From contig NZ_LMDK01000017.1 of the NCBI RefSeq assembly GCF_001425055.1, forward strand, positions 1-64,000: DNA of 64,000 nucleotides. Direction: 5' to 3'. The notes under the pieces are model-generated. The model saw nothing but the letters and a program-made list of their open reading frames with translations, was not told the origin of the DNA and searched no databases. This DNA is from Pelomonas sp. Root1237. Lineage in GTDB: Bacteria; Pseudomonadota; Gammaproteobacteria; Burkholderiales; Burkholderiaceae_C. Position numbers and translations under genes: made by a program. Position 1 is the first letter of the stretch. Each line of letters begins with the position of its first letter. Of the stretch, positions 6,904-16,984 are shown piece after piece.

Positions 6904-7887
6904 CTACCAAGGCGACAGCCAGGCGAGCAGTGCCAGCCAAAGTGGCGCCGTGGCGACGTAAAGGATGGTGGAAACGACGGTGGCGGCCGTGACCTCGGCC
7001 TCCAGCGCCCGGTAGCGCTGCGCGAAGATCAGCGCGTTGGAGCCGGTCGGCAGCGCCGCAATCATGACGATGACGGCCAGCGGCATGCCGTTCAGCCCCA
7101 GGCCCCAATGCGCGACGCCCAGCACCACGGCCGGCATCAGCAGCAGCTTGGCCAGCACCAGCCCGGCCAGGCCGCGCCAGGTGCGTGGCCAGCCGTAATA
7201 GGCCAGCGACATGCCGATCAGCGTCAGGCACAGCGGCACGACGGCCGTGCCCAGGCTTTGCAGCGCCTCATCGGCCACGGCGGGCAGGGTGAGGCCGGTC
7301 GCGTTCCAGGCCAGGCCGGCCAGCACCGGCAGCACGACGGGATGGATGACGGTGTTGCGCACGGTCTGCAGCAGCGTGCCGGCCAGGTTCCCGCTGCTGC
7401 GCTCGCGCGCCAGGTCGAGCTCGACGATGGCGGTCAGCAGCGTGAGTATCGACAGCGCATGCAGGCTCACCACGGCGATGTGGATGGCCAGGCCCTTCTC
7501 GCCGAACACGCCGGCCGCGACCGGCAGGCCCACCTGCAGCGTGTTGCCAAAGCCTGCGGTGATGGCCCTGACACTGGGCGCGACGACGTTCTCACCCGGC
7601 TTGCGCAGGCCGCGGTACAGCACGTAGAGCAGCGCGATCAGCACCAGCACCGGCACGAAGAAGGCGAACAGGAAGGCCCAGGGCAGCGCCGCCGTATCCA
7701 GCCGCGCCGTGGTACGGAACAGCAGGGCCGGCACGAAGATGTAGAAGGCCGCATTGGCCAGCACGCGGGCCGGGTCGCTGTCACTGCCCGCCTCGCCACC
7801 GCCCAGCCAGCGCATGCGGCCGACGGCCCAGCCGATGGCCACCGCAACCAATATCGCCAGCAGCTTCGCCGCAATTGCCCAGGTCAT
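6904..7887 (-). CDS. AEC-family (auxin efflux carrier-like) transporter
   Basis: A 327-residue integral membrane protein with about ten hydrophobic segments arranged as two halves. Family hallmarks are the N-terminal LLAILVAVAIGWAVGR helix, FYIFVPALLF, GFGNTLQVGLPVAAG in the middle (inverted-repeat crossover helix) and AALPTGSNALIFAQRY near the end (second crossover). In bacteria these carriers are linked to export or uptake of small carboxylates such as malonate or malate. The substrate cannot be told from sequence. It lies 80 bp downstream in genome order from the M16 gene start, on the same strand, and follows the hairpin-rich spacer 7888-8126. Confidence 0.85.
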   Translation of the reverse strand: MTWAIAAKLLAILVAVAIGWAVGRMRWLGGGEAGSDSDPARVLANAAFYIFVPALLFRTTARLDTAALPWAFLFAFFVPVLVLIALLYVLYRGLRKPGENVVAPSVRAITAGFGNTLQVGLPVAAGVFGEKGLAIHIAVVSLHALSILTLLTAIVELDLARERSSGNLAGTLLQTVRNTVIHPVVLPVLAGLAWNATGLTLPAVADEALQSLGTAVVPLCLTLIGMSLAYYGWPRTWRGLAGLVLAKLLLMPAVVLGVAHWGLGLNGMPLAVIVMIAALPTGSNALIFAQRYRALEAEVTAATVVSTILYVATAPLWLALLAWLSPW

Positions 7888-7935
7888 TCAGGCCCCTCGC
7901 CTGGTCTCGCCGCGCTGAACGCCGGCGCGCCCAAT

Positions 7936-8009
7936 CGGTCTTGCAGACCGCGCTGCGGCAAATGCCGCAGCTCTTCGGCAGGCACATCGCGTCCACTGGA
8001 CGCAATGTG
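7936..8009. repeat. Tandem hairpins in the spacer upstream of the AEC gene
   Basis: Three separate inverted repeats follow each other. The first, 7936-7950, is CGGTC-ttgca-GACCG. The second, 7952-7971, is GCTGCGGC-aaat-GCCGCAGC (8 perfect pairs). The third, 7983-8009, has CACAT and GCGTCC on the left pairing with GGACGC and ATGTG on the right around ACT, with one mismatch. They run straight into the structured repeat at 8022-8109, so roughly 175 bp of this 239-bp spacer is foldable. The cluster could act as a terminator for the kinase gene upstream on the minus strand, as a leader for the AEC gene, or as a REP-like cluster. Confidence 0.6.
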
Positions 8010-8021
8010 TCCGGCCAAAGC

Positions 8022-8109
8022 CCCCGAGGGGACGGTGATGCTTGCCGGATCGACCGGCAAGCACATCGCCAAGGCGGGCCGGCTCGGGAGCGGCCCAGCG
8101 CTCGGCCCG
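8022..8109 (+). repeat. Structured dispersed repeat, copy A
   Basis: This 88-bp element recurs on the other strand at 12690-12784. In order it holds the palindrome CCCCGAGGGG, then an outer stem GGTGAT/ATCGCC enclosing an inner stem TGCTTGCCGG/CCGGCAAGCA with loop ATCGA, then the hairpin arms GGGCCG/CGGCCC, and ends in GCGCTCGGCCCG. The flanking parts are nearly identical in both copies, while the inner stem differs in sequence but stays paired. No coding frame is credible here. It may be a REP-like mobile palindromic element or part of an untranslated RNA. Confidence 0.7.
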
Positions 8110-8126
8110 AAATGCGTCAAAGAAGC

Positions 8127-9989
8127 TCACGCCAGAGGAAGACGAAGTTCGAACACAAAGCTGCTGCCCTGCCCCGCCGTGCTCTGCACCAGGATCTGGC
8201 TGCCCATCAGGCGCACCAGCTGCTGGCTGATGGACAGGCCCAGGCCCGTGCCGCCGAGGTGGCGCGAGGCGTCGGACACCTGCTCGAAGGCCTGGAAGAG
8301 CCGCGCCTGCTGGGCCGGTGTCATGCCGATGCCGGTGTCGCTGACCTCGAAGCGCAGCCGCGTGTGCCTGGCATCGAGCTCGACGACGCGCGCGTCGAGC
8401 TGCACGCTGCCGCTGTCGGTGAACTTGACGGCGTTGGACAGTAGGTTGAGCAGCACCTGGCGCAGGCGCTGGCCGTCGGCGATGACCTGGGTCGGCAGGC
8501 GGGCGTCGATGTCCAGCCAGAAGGCCAGGCCCTTCTGCTCGGCGCGCAGGCGCACGCTGTCGCAGGCCATGTCGACGAGGGCGCGCAGGTCCACGGACGC
8601 CGGCTTGAGCGAGACCTTGCCGGCCTCGATGCTGGCCATGTCCAGCACGTCGTTGATGAGCTCCAGCAGATGCAGGCCGGAGTCACGCATCAACTGCAGC
8701 TTGGCCTGCTGGCCGGCGGGAATGGCGGCATCCATCTGCATCAGCTGCGTGAAGCCCAGGATGGCATTCAGCGGCGTGCGGAACTCGTGGCTCATGGTCG
8801 CCAGGAAACGGCCCTTGGCCTGGTTGGCGCTTTCGGCGCGCAGCTTGGCCTCGCTGAGTTCGGCGGTGCGCTCGTTGACGAGTTCTTCGAGGTGGTCGCG
8901 GTGGCGGGTCAACTCGGCCTCGGCCTGGCGGCGCAGCGAGATGTCGCTGACCATGCCCTCGATGCGACGCTGGCCGCTCTCGCCCTCAACCCAATGCGCG
9001 TTCAGCTCGACCCACAACGGCCGGCCACCCGCGCCGCGGAGCTGCAGCTGGCATTGCTGGATCTTGCCCTGCTCGTTCATGACGGCGGCGACGCGCTGCA
9101 TCTCATGCCGGTCAATGCCGGACAGCTCGCGCAGCCGCCGCCCGACGGGGCTTTGCGAACCCAGGCCCAGCATCTGCGTGAAGGCGCGGTTCATGCTGAG
9201 CACGCGGCCATCGGCGTCGGCCTGGAAGACGCCCTCGGTCGCGTTCTCGAACAGGCTGCGGTAGCGCGCCTCGCTGGCGCGCAGGCCTTCGGAGCTGAGC
9301 TGCACCTGGTCGGCCGCGCTGCGCAGCTTCAGGCTCATGGCGTTGAAGCGCATCGTCAGCTCGCCGATCTCGTCGCCGCGCTCCACGGTCTCCTGCGCCC
9401 CGAGGTCGCCCTTGGCAACGCGCTGGGCCAGCGCGCCCAGCTTCAGCACCGGCCGGCGCACCAGCCATTGCACGAGCAGGGAGCTGGCGATGACGATGCC
9501 GATGACGACGACGGCCAGCAGCTCGACGACGAAGAGGCGGGTGCGGCTGATCTGCTCGTCGATGAGATCACGCGTGACGGTGAGAACGGCCGAGGCGACC
9601 TGGGTGCCGGCCGTGTCAGCCGCGGGCTGGTAGGTGATGGCGAACTCGCGTCGCAGCGGCCCCACGGCCGGGGTGTCGCGGCCGCGCCGCGCCTGGCCGC
9701 CGCGCAGGCCCAGGCCCTTGAGCTCGATGGCATGCACCTCGGGGTCGGCCATGACGGCGTCGAGCAGGTTCTCGATGGCGACATGGTCTAGGTTCCAGAT
9801 CGGGCCCGCGAAACCGCGCTCGATGAGGCCAGCCATGCGCGCCTCGCGCTGGCGCAGGCCGGCCATCAGCTCGGCCTCTTCATGTGTCGTCCAGTACCAG
9901 CCCACCGCCAGCACCAGCAGGCTCGCAACCAGCGCAATGCCGGCCGTCAGGCGCGTCTGTATGCCGATGCTGATCGGTGCCAACGCCAT
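8127..9989 (-). CDS. Membrane sensor histidine kinase (HAMP-PAS-HisKA-HATPase)
   Basis: A 620-residue sensor kinase. A first membrane helix lies at about residues 13-30 and a second at about 165-190 (ELLAVVVIGIVIASSLLVQW), enclosing a periplasmic sensory domain of about 130 residues. A HAMP linker follows (VLKLGALAQRVAKGDLG), then a PAS domain (about 255-375, beginning RYRSLFENATEGVFQAD), a short coiled coil and the HisKA dimerisation domain with phospho-acceptor H401 in FLATMSHEFRTPLNAI. The HATPase domain has LLNLLSNAVKFT (N-box), DTGIGM (G1) and GGTGLGLSIS (G2). There is no receiver domain and no response-regulator gene nearby, so the partner and signal are unknown. The gene starts 76 bp after the topB stop on the same strand. 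Confidence 0.9.
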   Translation of the reverse strand: MALAPISIGIQTRLTAGIALVASLLVLAVGWYWTTHEEAELMAGLRQREARMAGLIERGFAGPIWNLDHVAIENLLDAVMADPEVHAIELKGLGLRGGQARRGRDTPAVGPLRREFAITYQPAADTAGTQVASAVLTVTRDLIDEQISRTRLFVVELLAVVVIGIVIASSLLVQWLVRRPVLKLGALAQRVAKGDLGAQETVERGDEIGELTMRFNAMSLKLRSAADQVQLSSEGLRASEARYRSLFENATEGVFQADADGRVLSMNRAFTQMLGLGSQSPVGRRLRELSGIDRHEMQRVAAVMNEQGKIQQCQLQLRGAGGRPLWVELNAHWVEGESGQRRIEGMVSDISLRRQAEAELTRHRDHLEELVNERTAELSEAKLRAESANQAKGRFLATMSHEFRTPLNAILGFTQLMQMDAAIPAGQQAKLQLMRDSGLHLLELINDVLDMASIEAGKVSLKPASVDLRALVDMACDSVRLRAEQKGLAFWLDIDARLPTQVIADGQRLRQVLLNLLSNAVKFTDSGSVQLDARVVELDARHTRLRFEVSDTGIGMTPAQQARLFQAFEQVSDASRHLGGTGLGLSISQQLVRLMGSQILVQSTAGQGSSFVFELRLPLA

Positions 9990-10065
9990 CCCCTCTCCCC
10001 CGGTGCAGCCTTGTCAGGCCATGCGGCGAGCATAAATGCTGTGGCGCCGCGAATTTCCTGCCCGC

Positions 10066-12657
10066 TCAGCTCTTGGCCGCCGTCTTCTTGGCTGCCACCT
10101 TCTTGGCAGCAGGCGCCTTGGCAGCGCGCGGCTCGAACTCGAAGATGACCTTGCCTTCCTTCTTGTCATAGGCCAGGAAGGCCTTGAACTTGCGGCGCGT
10201 CTTGTTGGAGACGAAGTTTTCCAGCAGGTCGGTCTTGCCGTTGGCCAGCAGCTTGTGCACCTGGGCCGGCTCGATGGGCTGGGTCAGGATGACCTTGCCG
10301 GTCTTGAAGTCGCAGGTGACGGTGGCACCGACCGAATGCTCACAGACGTAGTTGGCGCCGTGCTCGTAGACGTGGCCCTTGCACTTGGGGCAGGCCCCGA
10401 GCGAGTTCTGGCCGGAAAAGTCCACCGGTTCGCCATCGCCCTCGGCCTTCTTGGCGTCCTCGCCGAAGTCGAATTCCAGCTTCCAGTTGGCGATCTCCTC
10501 GTCATAGACCAGCGCCAGCTCGGCCGTGAAGGGCCAGCCCGCCTTGGAGCGGAAGCCTTCCAGCGGGCCGATCTTCTTGTTCGCCAGGAAGGTCTCGACC
10601 TCGTTCAGCTCAAAGCTGCGGCCGCCCGGGATCTTGCCGATGGAGAAGCCGCAGGCGTCCTCACCCGTGCCGCTCTTGCCGGTGCAGGTGAAGCGCCGAT
10701 AGTTCTCTTTCACGATGCCGCCGCACTTGGGGCAGGGCGTCTTCAGCGTCGCATAGTCGCCGGGGATGGTGTCGCGGTCATAGCCCTTGGCCTTGGCGAC
10801 CATCTTCTCGGTCATGGCCGCGATCTCGGCCATGAAGACCTCGCGCTTCAGGCGCCCCTTCTCCATCTCGGCCAGCTTGTATTCCCAGTCGCCGGTCAGT
10901 TCGGGCTTGGTCAGGTCCTCCACGTCCAGGCCGCGCAGCAGCGTCATCAGCTGGAAGGCCTTGGCGGTCGGGATCAGCTCGCGGCCCTCGCGCAGCATGT
11001 ACTTCTCGCTGATCAGGCCTTCGATGGTGGCCGCGCGCGTGGCTGGCGTGCCCAGGCCCTTCTCGGCCATGGCCTCGCGCAGCTCGTCGTCGTCGATGAG
11101 CTTGCCGGCGCCTTCCATGGCGGACAGCAGCGTCGCTTCGGTGTAGCGCGCCGGCGGCTTGGTCTGCAGCGCCTTCACGTCCACGCTCTCGGTGCGCACG
11201 ACTTCGTTGGCCTGCACCGGCACGAGGTTAGCGTCCTCGTCGTCCACGTCCTTGCCGTAGACGGCCAGCCAGCCCGGCTTGACCAGCACCTTGCCGTTGG
11301 TCTGGAAATGGTGCTTGTTGTCGATTTTCGAGATACGCGTCGTGACCAGGAACTCGGCCGGCGGGAAGAACACCGCCAGGAAGCGCTTGACGACCATGTC
11401 GTAGAGCTTGGCCTCGATCTCGGTCAGGGCCTTGGGCGCCTGCAGCGTCGGGATGATGGCGAAGTGATCCGACACCTTGGCGTTGTCGAAGACCTTCTTC
11501 GTCGGCTTGATATAGCCCTCCTTCAGCGACGTGGCGGCATGCTGGGACAGCGCGGCCAGCGGGCCGGGCAGGTCCTCGGTCGCCAGCATCTTGGCCGTGT
11601 CCTTGGCCACGGCCACGTAGTCCTCGGGCAGGAAGCGCGAGTCCGTCCGCGGGTAGGTCAGCACCTTGTGCTTCTCGTACAGCGCCTGGGCGATGGACAG
11701 CGTCGTCTTGGCCGAGAAGCCGAAGCGCGAATTGGCCTCGCGCTGCAGCGTCGTCAGGTCGTAGAGGCCGCCGCAGCTCGTGGTGCTGGGCTTGCTTTCC
11801 TCGGTGACGACGGCGGGCTTGCCGAGCACCGCCTTGGCGATCTCGTCGGCCTCTCCTTGAGTCCAGAGCCGGTCGGCCCGGCGCTCCAGGTCGTCGTTCT
11901 TCTTCCACGCGGGGTCGAACCACTTGCCTTCGTACTGGCCGGCCTGGGCGTCGAAGTTGGCGCGCAGCTCCCAGTAGTCGCGGGCGACGTGCTTGCGGAT
12001 CTTTTCCTCGCGCTCGACAACGACCGACAGCGTCGGCGTCTGCACGCGGCCCACCGTGGTCAGGAAGAAGCCGCCGTCGCGCGAGTTGAAGGCCGTCATG
12101 GCCCGCGTGCCGTTGATGCCCACCAGCCAGTCGGCCTCGGAGCGGCAGCGCGCCGCGTCGGCCAGCGGCAGCATCTGCGCGTCGCTGCGCAGCTTCTCGA
12201 AGCCCTCGCGGATGGCGGCGGGCGTCATGGACTGCAGCCACAGCCGCTCGATGGGCTTGTTGAGCTTGCCCTTGGCCGGCTGGGCGTACTGCTCGATAAG
12301 CCGGAAGATCAGCTCACCCTCGCGGCCCGCGTCGCAGGCGTTGATCAGCGCCGTCACGTCCTTGCGGCGGATCAGCTTGGCCAGCGCGTTGAGCCGACCC
12401 TTGTTCTTGTCGATCGGGTTGAGGTCGAAATGCGGCGGGATGACGGGGAGGTTGTTGAAGCTCCACTTGCCGCGCTTGACGTCGAACTCCTCGGGCGCCG
12501 CGATCTCCACCAGGTGGCCGACGGCCGAGCTGACGACGTACTGCTCGTTCTCGAAGTGGTCGTCGTGCTTGTCGAACTTGCCCGCCACGGGTGTCAGCGC
12601 GCGGACGATGTCCTGCGCGACGGAGGGCTTCTCGGCAATGATCAGAGTCTTGCTCAT
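10066..12657 (-). CDS. topB: DNA topoisomerase III
   Basis: A type IA topoisomerase of 863 residues that relaxes and decatenates single-stranded or nicked DNA, working with RecQ-type helicases in E. coli. The N-terminal TOPRIM domain starts MSKTLIIAEKPSVAQDI and carries DAGREGELIF (metal-binding acidic residues). The active-site tyrosine is Y335 in LTYPRTDSRFLP. The C-terminal part contains two zinc-ribbon units, CPKCGG...C...C near residue 640 and CPKCKG...C...C near residue 755. It ends with a Lys/Ala-rich tail (APAAKKVAAKKTAAKS) likely to bind DNA. It is longer than E. coli TopB (about 650 residues) because of these zinc units. A copy of the structured repeat lies directly upstream. Confidence 0.95.
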   Translation of the reverse strand: MSKTLIIAEKPSVAQDIVRALTPVAGKFDKHDDHFENEQYVVSSAVGHLVEIAAPEEFDVKRGKWSFNNLPVIPPHFDLNPIDKNKGRLNALAKLIRRKDVTALINACDAGREGELIFRLIEQYAQPAKGKLNKPIERLWLQSMTPAAIREGFEKLRSDAQMLPLADAARCRSEADWLVGINGTRAMTAFNSRDGGFFLTTVGRVQTPTLSVVVEREEKIRKHVARDYWELRANFDAQAGQYEGKWFDPAWKKNDDLERRADRLWTQGEADEIAKAVLGKPAVVTEESKPSTTSCGGLYDLTTLQREANSRFGFSAKTTLSIAQALYEKHKVLTYPRTDSRFLPEDYVAVAKDTAKMLATEDLPGPLAALSQHAATSLKEGYIKPTKKVFDNAKVSDHFAIIPTLQAPKALTEIEAKLYDMVVKRFLAVFFPPAEFLVTTRISKIDNKHHFQTNGKVLVKPGWLAVYGKDVDDEDANLVPVQANEVVRTESVDVKALQTKPPARYTEATLLSAMEGAGKLIDDDELREAMAEKGLGTPATRAATIEGLISEKYMLREGRELIPTAKAFQLMTLLRGLDVEDLTKPELTGDWEYKLAEMEKGRLKREVFMAEIAAMTEKMVAKAKGYDRDTIPGDYATLKTPCPKCGGIVKENYRRFTCTGKSGTGEDACGFSIGKIPGGRSFELNEVETFLANKKIGPLEGFRSKAGWPFTAELALVYDEEIANWKLEFDFGEDAKKAEGDGEPVDFSGQNSLGACPKCKGHVYEHGANYVCEHSVGATVTCDFKTGKVILTQPIEPAQVHKLLANGKTDLLENFVSNKTRRKFKAFLAYDKKEGKVIFEFEPRAAKAPAAKKVAAKKTAAKS

Positions 12658-12689
12658 CGGTCTTTCAATCAGTTGTCAGTTCGTCTTCC

Positions 12690-12784
12690 CGGGCCGAGCG
12701 CCGGGCCGTTCCCAAGCCGGCCCGCCGGGCGATGTGCACGCGGCTCGAAGCCGCGTGTATCGCCGTCCCCTCGGGGGACCGGCC
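12690..12784 (-). repeat. Structured dispersed repeat, copy B
   Basis: Read on the minus strand this matches copy A at 8022-8109: CCCCGAGGGGACGG, then outer stem GGCGAT/ATCGCC, inner stem CACGCGGC/GCCGCGTG with loop TTCGA, then GCGGGCCGGCT, CGGCCC and GCGCTCGGCCCG. The inner stem differs from copy A at four of eight positions, each matched by a change on the other arm. It lies in the spacer between topB (33 bp from its start codon) and the SET-domain gene. A separate small palindrome, CCAAGG-tagt-CCTTGG, follows at 12783-12798. Confidence 0.7.
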
Positions 12785-12890
12785 AAGGTAGTCCTTGGAC
12801 GAGGGGTCTCATTCTTGCTGCCTACAATCCGGGCCTCGCGCGCACGCCTACGCACACGCGCACCCATGAAATCACCGTACCACAGCGCCG

Positions 12891-16933: not shown

Positions 16934-16984
16934 CATCAAAGCTCTGGCCCGCGTTCAGCGCGGCCAGACTGTGCGAGCGGCTCG

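Follow-up and report, generated by a model that had tools for sequence, protein, structure and literature searches.

Two intergenic positions in a Pelomonas genome carry what looks like one structured element in opposite orientations, which raises the question of what this element is and why its fold is kept. The window, that is, the whole stretch of 64,000 nucleotides (nt) analysed here, covers positions 1 to 64,000 of contig NZ_LMDK01000017.1 of Pelomonas sp. Root1237. A first-pass annotation, made from the letters alone, had described a two-copy element at 8022-8109 on the plus strand (copy A) and at 12690-12784 on the minus strand (copy B), and reading the letters of the window bore out both positions. 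The motif CCCCGAGGGGACGG occurs there without mismatch exactly twice, at 8022-8035 (+) and 12763-12776 (-). At up to 2 mismatches it has 4 matches in the window, a number that 15 of 100 shuffles reach as well; therefore, the motif alone proves little. The first-pass annotation had proposed a covariance-model search of the genome and its relatives. Such a model, built from 43 copies of the genome, picked up 146 copies within this genome (E<=0.001), besides those in relatives, and the 3' module at up to 3 mismatches gave 121 copies there versus 0 for a reversed control pattern. Therefore, copies A and B are no chance pair but a sample of a dispersed family. The pair is real, and only its description as a two-copy element was too narrow, as the two are part of a dispersed mosaic repeat family with about 146 members in this genome. 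On balance, with odds slightly above even, we favour a non-autonomous mobile family, similar to the REP/BIME or BOX repeats, that moved as a folded single strand.

The element had been drawn too short. Its true start is a terminal CCCCTCG, upstream of the point where the first-pass annotation began, and from this end the modules follow in the order CCCCTCG, P2, an optional domain of about 80 nt (D2), a C4/G4 hairpin (HpC), H1, and a 3' hairpin module (D3) ending GCTCGGCCCG. The features in the window are the following.

7893..8109, plus strand (the reader's strand, on which the element was first read): copy A, whole element, long form, 217 nt
7893..7899, plus strand: terminal CCCCTCG of copy A, the gene-border end
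7900..7936, plus strand: P2 hairpin of copy A, medium type with CGCTGAACGC tip, from sequence and family comparison
7940..8020, plus strand: optional domain D2 of copy A (CTTGCAGACC...GGCCAAAG), 81 nt, found in long copies
8021..8031, plus strand: C4/G4 hairpin (HpC) of copy A
8034..8070, plus strand: H1 of copy A, outer stem GGTGAT/ATCGCC, inner stem CTTGCCGG/CCGGCAAG, loop ATCGA
8075..8109, plus strand: 3' module D3 of copy A (CGGGCCGGCT...GCTCGGCCCG)
12690..12806, minus strand: copy B, whole element, short form, 117 nt
12800..12806, minus strand: terminal CCCCTCG of copy B
12782..12799, minus strand: short P2 hairpin of copy B (CCAAGG/CCTTGG)
12767..12777, minus strand: C4/G4 hairpin (HpC) of copy B
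12728..12764, minus strand: H1 of copy B, outer stem GGCGAT/ATCGCC, inner stem CACGCGGC/GCCGCGTG, loop TTCGA
12690..12724, minus strand: 3' module D3 of copy B
16944..16983, minus strand: possible decayed remnant, a lone P2-like hairpin (TGGCCGCGCTGAACGCGGGCCA) with weak matches of 16 and 22 bits

That the fold rather than the sequence is maintained had been argued from the inner stem of these two copies, and the letters agree with the argument as far as it went. Between copies A and B, 4 of the 8 inner-stem positions are changed and all are compensated, the loops differ in their first letter as listed, and the outer stem shows a single GC to GU-type change. The compensated changes are real, but H1 has two main linked alleles in the own genome (28 and 15 of 43 copies), so that this comparison does not amount to four independent events. 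In an alignment of 87 distinct relatives from named genomes, fitted to the covariance model, double changes were found in 18 of 29 pairs (shuffles 6.0, standard deviation 1.4; 0 of 500 reach this), 97.5% of the cells are paired versus 91.8 in shuffles, and 71 cells are doubly changed versus 12.7, again with 0 of 500 shuffles reaching the observed number. Sliding the pairing partners in this alignment destroyed the signal. For P2, 57 doubly changed cells were counted in 56 distinct medium copies, whereas shuffles average 16.9 and never exceed 27. The arms of H1 are also diverse, and each meets its complement (GCTTGCCGG, GCTTGCGGC, GCTCGCGGC, GCATGACGG and TGACCGGGC; 156 copies over all groups, matched by one pattern). 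Strong covariation is thus present in both H1 and P2, the inner stem included, and the view that the fold is what is kept is supported.

The family is wide in distribution and variable in composition. All 19 other genomes of the genus match, with 16 to at least 102 matches each, and the same search matched 0 of 20 genomes outside the genus (4 of the same family and 16 of other families). A wider sample of the bacterial family gave matches in at least 73 of 299 genomes and at least 39 of 141 genera, own genus included; these counts are lower bounds, as the filters were stricter and 13 candidates at most were scored per genome. Among the matches listed are the genera Pelomonas, Roseateles, Piscinibacter, Rhizobacter, Methylibium, Aquabacterium, Ideonella, Rubrivivax, Sphaerotilus, Rivibacter and Paucibacter.

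Of the 146 model matches, the 128 copies lying in loci fetched for core hits were analysed with their flanks. CCCCTCG stands at the start of 123 of them, a conservation that is partly built in, because element starts were located by searching this motif with up to 1 change. Element lengths in the own genome are about 118, 135 and 193-218 nt. The corresponding size classes comprise about 28 short, 70 medium, 29 long and 1 odd copy after misplaced ends were corrected by eye (start of L009; ends of L194 +, L253, L257 and L254), versus 31, 68, 28 and 1 other as classed by script; a later and looser motif recount of the boundaries flagged some further copies. P2 occurs in a short form (CCAAGG/CCTTGG type) or in the medium form with the CGCTGAACGC tip, and long copies contain the extra D2 domain with its GGCACAn..nTGTGTCC hairpin. 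This domain can be present or absent at one same site between relatives. In the relative G002, the 3' module of both mapped copies that are present is enlarged by a further insert, and the H1 of one of them is quite different yet complementary. In other genera, many copies have a 77-nt form without H1, and some loci hold tandem copies at 90-nt spacing. Additionally, a part of D2 was seen outside the element in locus L301 (9540-9640, minus strand), adjoining a C5/G5 hairpin; from this occurrence, D2 may be a module shared with other mosaic repeats.

The copies sit mostly at gene borders. The gene calls are those of a codon-position caller made for this analysis and trained on the fetched loci; its start codons are less sure than its stops. 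By these calls, the gene on the CCCCTCG side is co-directional with the element in 108 of the 128 copies, and 103 have their CCCCTCG end 0-12 nt downstream of that gene's stop codon. Where the neighbouring genes are convergent (38 copies), the stop is a median of 4 nt away at the CCCCTCG end and 19.5 nt away at the other. Overlap with called genes exceeds 30 nt in 3 of 128 copies, with 86.5% of the fetched DNA called coding. Of the 128 copies, 70 lie between co-directional genes, and the next called start is 10-60 nt away in 50 of these. Among the 20 copies outside the 108, a CAT (start codon of the other strand) is found 4-8 nt from the end in 6, copy A included, and the gene call agrees for 4. 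TGA was considered as the target and rejected, as stop use is ordinary and no clear preference is seen (abutted stops TGA 83, TAG 12 and TAA 8, versus 293, 60 and 49 in all called genes). The word TGAAATG is frequent in the flanks.

In the window, a minus-strand membrane-transport gene (PF03547) has its start codon (CAT 7885-7887) 5 nt from the CCCCTCG end of copy A. Copy B precedes the start codon of a DNA topoisomerase gene (PF01131) by 32 nt, with a divergent SET-domain gene (PF00856) on its other side. The lone hairpin at 16944-16983 (-) directly follows a stop codon and is followed by a terminator-like GGCCAG hairpin; it is possibly a decayed copy.

Sites compared between relatives differ in whether the element is there and in which modules it has. 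Seven own copies have both flanks on one stretch of G002; the element is absent there at 4 sites, present with other modules at 2, and 1 site is rearranged (for L213, the pairing is less sure, with a flank identity of 71.9%). At the sites of copies A and B, the states were read by eye. Site A was compared in 16 genomes, own included: the element exists in 5 (one in opposite orientation, one truncated), a different palindromic repeat of the CACAGAGGCACAGAG type in 6, and neither in 5. G002, with a protein 99% identical at this site, carries the CACAGAGGCACAGAG-type repeat instead of the element. At site B, 18 informative genomes (own included; duplicate fragment, contig edge and paralogue left out of the tally) show a version of the element in 6, the CACAGAGGCACAGAG-type repeat in 2, and neither in 10. 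The CACAGAGGCACAGAG...CTCTGTGCCTCTGTG type is a second palindromic intergenic repeat family, which takes up the same intergenic sites as the element elsewhere in the genus; it lies upstream of the matched genes at L285, L289, L290, L291, L294 and L296 for site A, and at L263 and L279/L281 for site B.

Which strand folds can be approached from mismatches. A folding strand tolerates G.T mismatches, and a fold on the opposite strand would appear as A.C on the reader's strand. In H1, the reader's strand shows A.C 19 times versus G.T once in a first tally, 26 versus 4 across all groups, and 18 versus 3 in 50 distinct arm pairs. P2 gives 53 versus 12 in a tally of 97 copies and 50 versus 12 in the tally of 56 distinct 34-nt cores, where A.C is ahead in 8 of 13 pairs, behind in 4 and equal in 1; the short P2 of named loci gives 8 versus 0. 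By location, the ratio is 15 to 1 in stop-adjoining copies (86 copies) and 6 to 0 in the others (22 copies). Moreover, the base of P2 is a pyrimidine-pyrimidine pair (T.C 25 and C.T 26 of 56; in named loci T.C 31 and C.T 7 of 57), which on the other strand is G.A or A.G. These counts indicate, without settling it, that the strand opposite to the reader's, here called the bottom strand, is the one that folds; the first-pass annotation had probably read the wrong strand for the fold.

Taken as a mobile element, the family could work as follows. REP and IS200/IS605 elements are handled in trans as single-stranded DNA, and the Y1 enzyme class works on single strands. In the same manner, an enzyme supplied in trans, for instance a Y1/RAYT-like transposase, would recognise the folded strand, most likely as single-stranded DNA, and would insert it at gene borders. 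Such insertions would survive because they leave the genes on either side whole; beside a start codon, the bottom-strand terminal GAGGGG could act as a ribosome-binding site. Most copies in this genus are antisense to the gene they abut. A strand-specific fold would be better explained by selection on a mobile intermediate than by a role as transcribed RNA, and single-stranded DNA handled in trans would be the most economical model.

Several results weigh against this reading. Shuffled columns are themselves tilted toward A.C by about 2 to 1 (82.6 versus 42.1 for P2, 29.4 versus 16.2 for H1), so that part of the strand asymmetry is column composition and the true effect is smaller than the raw ratios; the mismatch counts are also not independent, the copies being related. 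Some insertions are common to several species and hence old. No target-site duplication emerged: the longest words common to the two flanks average 5.33 versus 5.07 in shuffles (range 4.85-5.35), and 76 of 500 shuffles do as well as the real data in the start-codon test. The exact 3' module was not found in viral contigs, and no match of copy B was found in plasmid records. Finally, no dedicated enzyme was found, as only 1 of 31 Y1-transposase loci scanned with 1.5-kb flanks has copies on both sides and 2 have a copy on one side.

The search for an enzyme covered 3 own Y1 loci and 28 from other genomes of the genus, out of 40 Y1 matches in total; each of the 20 genomes of the genus has one such match or more. 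The 3 own loci have no element copy within 1.5 kb. One of them (L050, 1340-2010; PF01797, 26.4 bits) holds a Y1-transposase gene, which we take to be YafM-like, with its own GTAGGTTGGGGT-type (GTAGG) inverted repeats nearby that are unrelated to the element. Another locus (L048, 1459-2184) holds a Y1-transposase gene of 241 amino acids between genes for an HD-domain phosphohydrolase and a class-II glutamine amidotransferase. In L346 (1-2400, genome G016), element copies of one orientation flank a Y1 gene, one of them starting a few nucleotides past its stop, and in L344 a partial copy lies downstream of a Y1 gene. A RAYT partnership was rejected on the grounds that the Y1 gene of L050 has its own GTAGG repeats and that the adjacency in L346 and L344 is taken as chance, because there are about 100-150 copies per genome. 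An origin from TnpB was rejected too, as PF07282 has no match in the own genome while its control worked. IscB (PF14239) had no match in the own genome and HEARO (RF02033) none in 40 genomes, with the control genomes equally silent in both searches, so that absence is not shown.

The preferred reading, a mobile mosaic family moved as a folded single strand, places the element near several known systems. The BOX elements of Streptococcus pneumoniae (boxA-boxB-boxC) are described as small composite interspersed repeats in which one module can be absent or multiple, with strong predicted folds, over-represented between convergent genes and interpreted as likely mobile and parasitic (PMC3049150). 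The present family resembles them in its dispersed copies of optional or exchangeable modules, as seen in the three size classes, the module differences at the same site and the 77-nt form. In contrast to BOX, the element has one end directly at a stop codon, in one orientation, or at a start codon, and this holds between co-directional genes as well. The sequence of BOX is presumably unrelated to it.

REP/BIME repeats with RAYT (Y1) enzymes exceed 100 per genome and are palindromic, extragenic and arranged in mosaics, and REPs flanking rayt genes can sit immediately past the rayt stop codon (PMC2817692). The element is likewise high-copy, palindromic, extragenic and mosaic. However, it has no GTAG tag and ends in CCCCTCG and GCTCGGCCCG-like sequence in the 128 copies (117-218 nt); it is also asymmetric, 77-310 nt long, and does not regularly flank Y1 genes. 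CGTC-tagged REPs are many-copy palindromes of 20-40 bp, apparently without a dedicated transposase; their first two stem positions are complementary A/T, and most have CCA tails (PMC3733652). The element shares with them the many palindromic copies and the lack of a dedicated transposase found. A CGTC does precede the C4/G4 hairpin on the bottom strand in the genus, but by eye the stem starts with C and has no CCA tail, and in other genera this CGTC is missing in many copies.

Identity with a miniature inverted-repeat transposable element was rejected, since by eye the CCCCTCG and GCTCGGCCCG ends are not inverted repeats, and no target-site duplication exceeded shuffles. HEARO, the omega RNA of IscB elements, has an ATGA target preference, and the present copies are similar in being structured, probably mobile and near ATGA-type junctions. 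Burkholderiales-1 is a candidate RNA motif confined to Burkholderiales, without an Rfam accession in the table of its source (PMC2864571); the comparison is with that table entry only. That the first-pass annotation knew of no fitting named family agrees with the Rfam search, in which the window had 0 families at the gathering cut-off. With a lax threshold applied to 3 other loci, SrbA, whose cut-off is 69 bits, covered one copy on the minus strand at 27.6 bits (E 0.00067), while an unrelated miRNA model hit sequence outside the element.

Among the alternatives, the one that survives best, while still judged unlikely, is a structured RNA of the bottom strand acting in cis, for instance an intercistronic element or a 5' leader that brings its own ribosome-binding site (GAGGGG) and regulates or insulates the next gene. 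The strand asymmetry favours the bottom strand, and the relative of about 77 nt in other genera lies mostly bottom-strand sense before a start codon. There, 72 short forms are under 100 nt, and in the gene-context tally of those under 82 nt the gene at the CCCCTCG side is on the opposite strand in 54 and co-directional in 9, with 29 of the 54 at exactly 5 nt by gene call. The consensus preceding CCCC in the 77-nt form is TCATG(A/T)C(A/T)G, so that the bottom strand reads GAGGGG, five nucleotides, ATG. GAGG is also commoner upstream of the ATG starts of the gene calls than in a control stretch (35 versus 14 of 306), but GAGGGG itself is not enriched before called starts (4 versus 4 of 306). In the own genome, moreover, the 108 copies given above have a bottom strand that is antisense to the gene on their CCCCTCG side, and in 70 copies it is antisense to both neighbours, so that a common transcript is not to be expected; a shared role as transcribed RNA is unlikely in the genus. 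The CCCCTCG/CGAGGGG pairing, considered as a switch hiding the site, was rejected because it is not maintained (CGA in the middle loop of only 63 of 128 copies).

It is also conceivable, if rather doubtful, that a travelling folded single strand, possibly reverse-transcribed RNA, homes to gene borders, after stops or before starts with its own ribosome-binding site, where insertion would be nearly harmless; its hairpin modules, including the purine-purine pair, would be kept by selection on the intermediate and exchanged between copies. Still less is to be said for a bacterial analogue of short interspersed nuclear elements, in which a structured bottom-strand RNA would be copied by reverse transcription at a nick near a gene border. 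The same strand asymmetry, the lack of target duplication, and one end close to a gene border with the other loose are in line with it. Systematic truncation of the far end is not seen, as 128 of 129 hits span the core, a weak test given that the loci were picked by core hits, and the element has no known promoter.

The first-pass annotation had left the choice between an RNA structure and a palindrome recognised by a protein. A palindrome bound by a double-strand DNA protein, such as a nucleoid or gyrase-type site spread by recombination, appears quite improbable: the hairpins are palindromic, intergenic and present in many copies, but their arms vary yet stay complementary, a non-Watson-Crick pair is kept, and mismatches differ between strands, the last point being softened by the similar tilt of shuffled columns. 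Ordinary intrinsic terminators sharing sequence by chance or descent would place hairpins shortly after stop codons, as observed, but are very improbable, since T runs are absent at the reader's-strand end and rare at the other (TTTT within 15 nt in 0 and 5 of 128 copies, TTT in 5 and 40), the common sequence spans several modules, and 70 copies lie between co-directional genes, 50 of them close before the next called start. Neither of the outcomes that the first-pass annotation had named as refuting it, missing covariation or a plain terminator, is thus seen.

The finding would bring to light a large repeat family in a bacterial family, with no earlier description found in the open-access literature, subscription papers and supplements being beyond the search. 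The copies form a natural data set with strong covariation that is readable per strand, and this can help to distinguish intermediates of single-strand DNA or RNA from sites recognised as double strands. The gene-border rule poses a testable question, namely how a small element finds stop or start codons, or why only such insertions survive. For annotators, it means that a common structured insert sits in many of the 3' ends and 5' leaders of these genomes.

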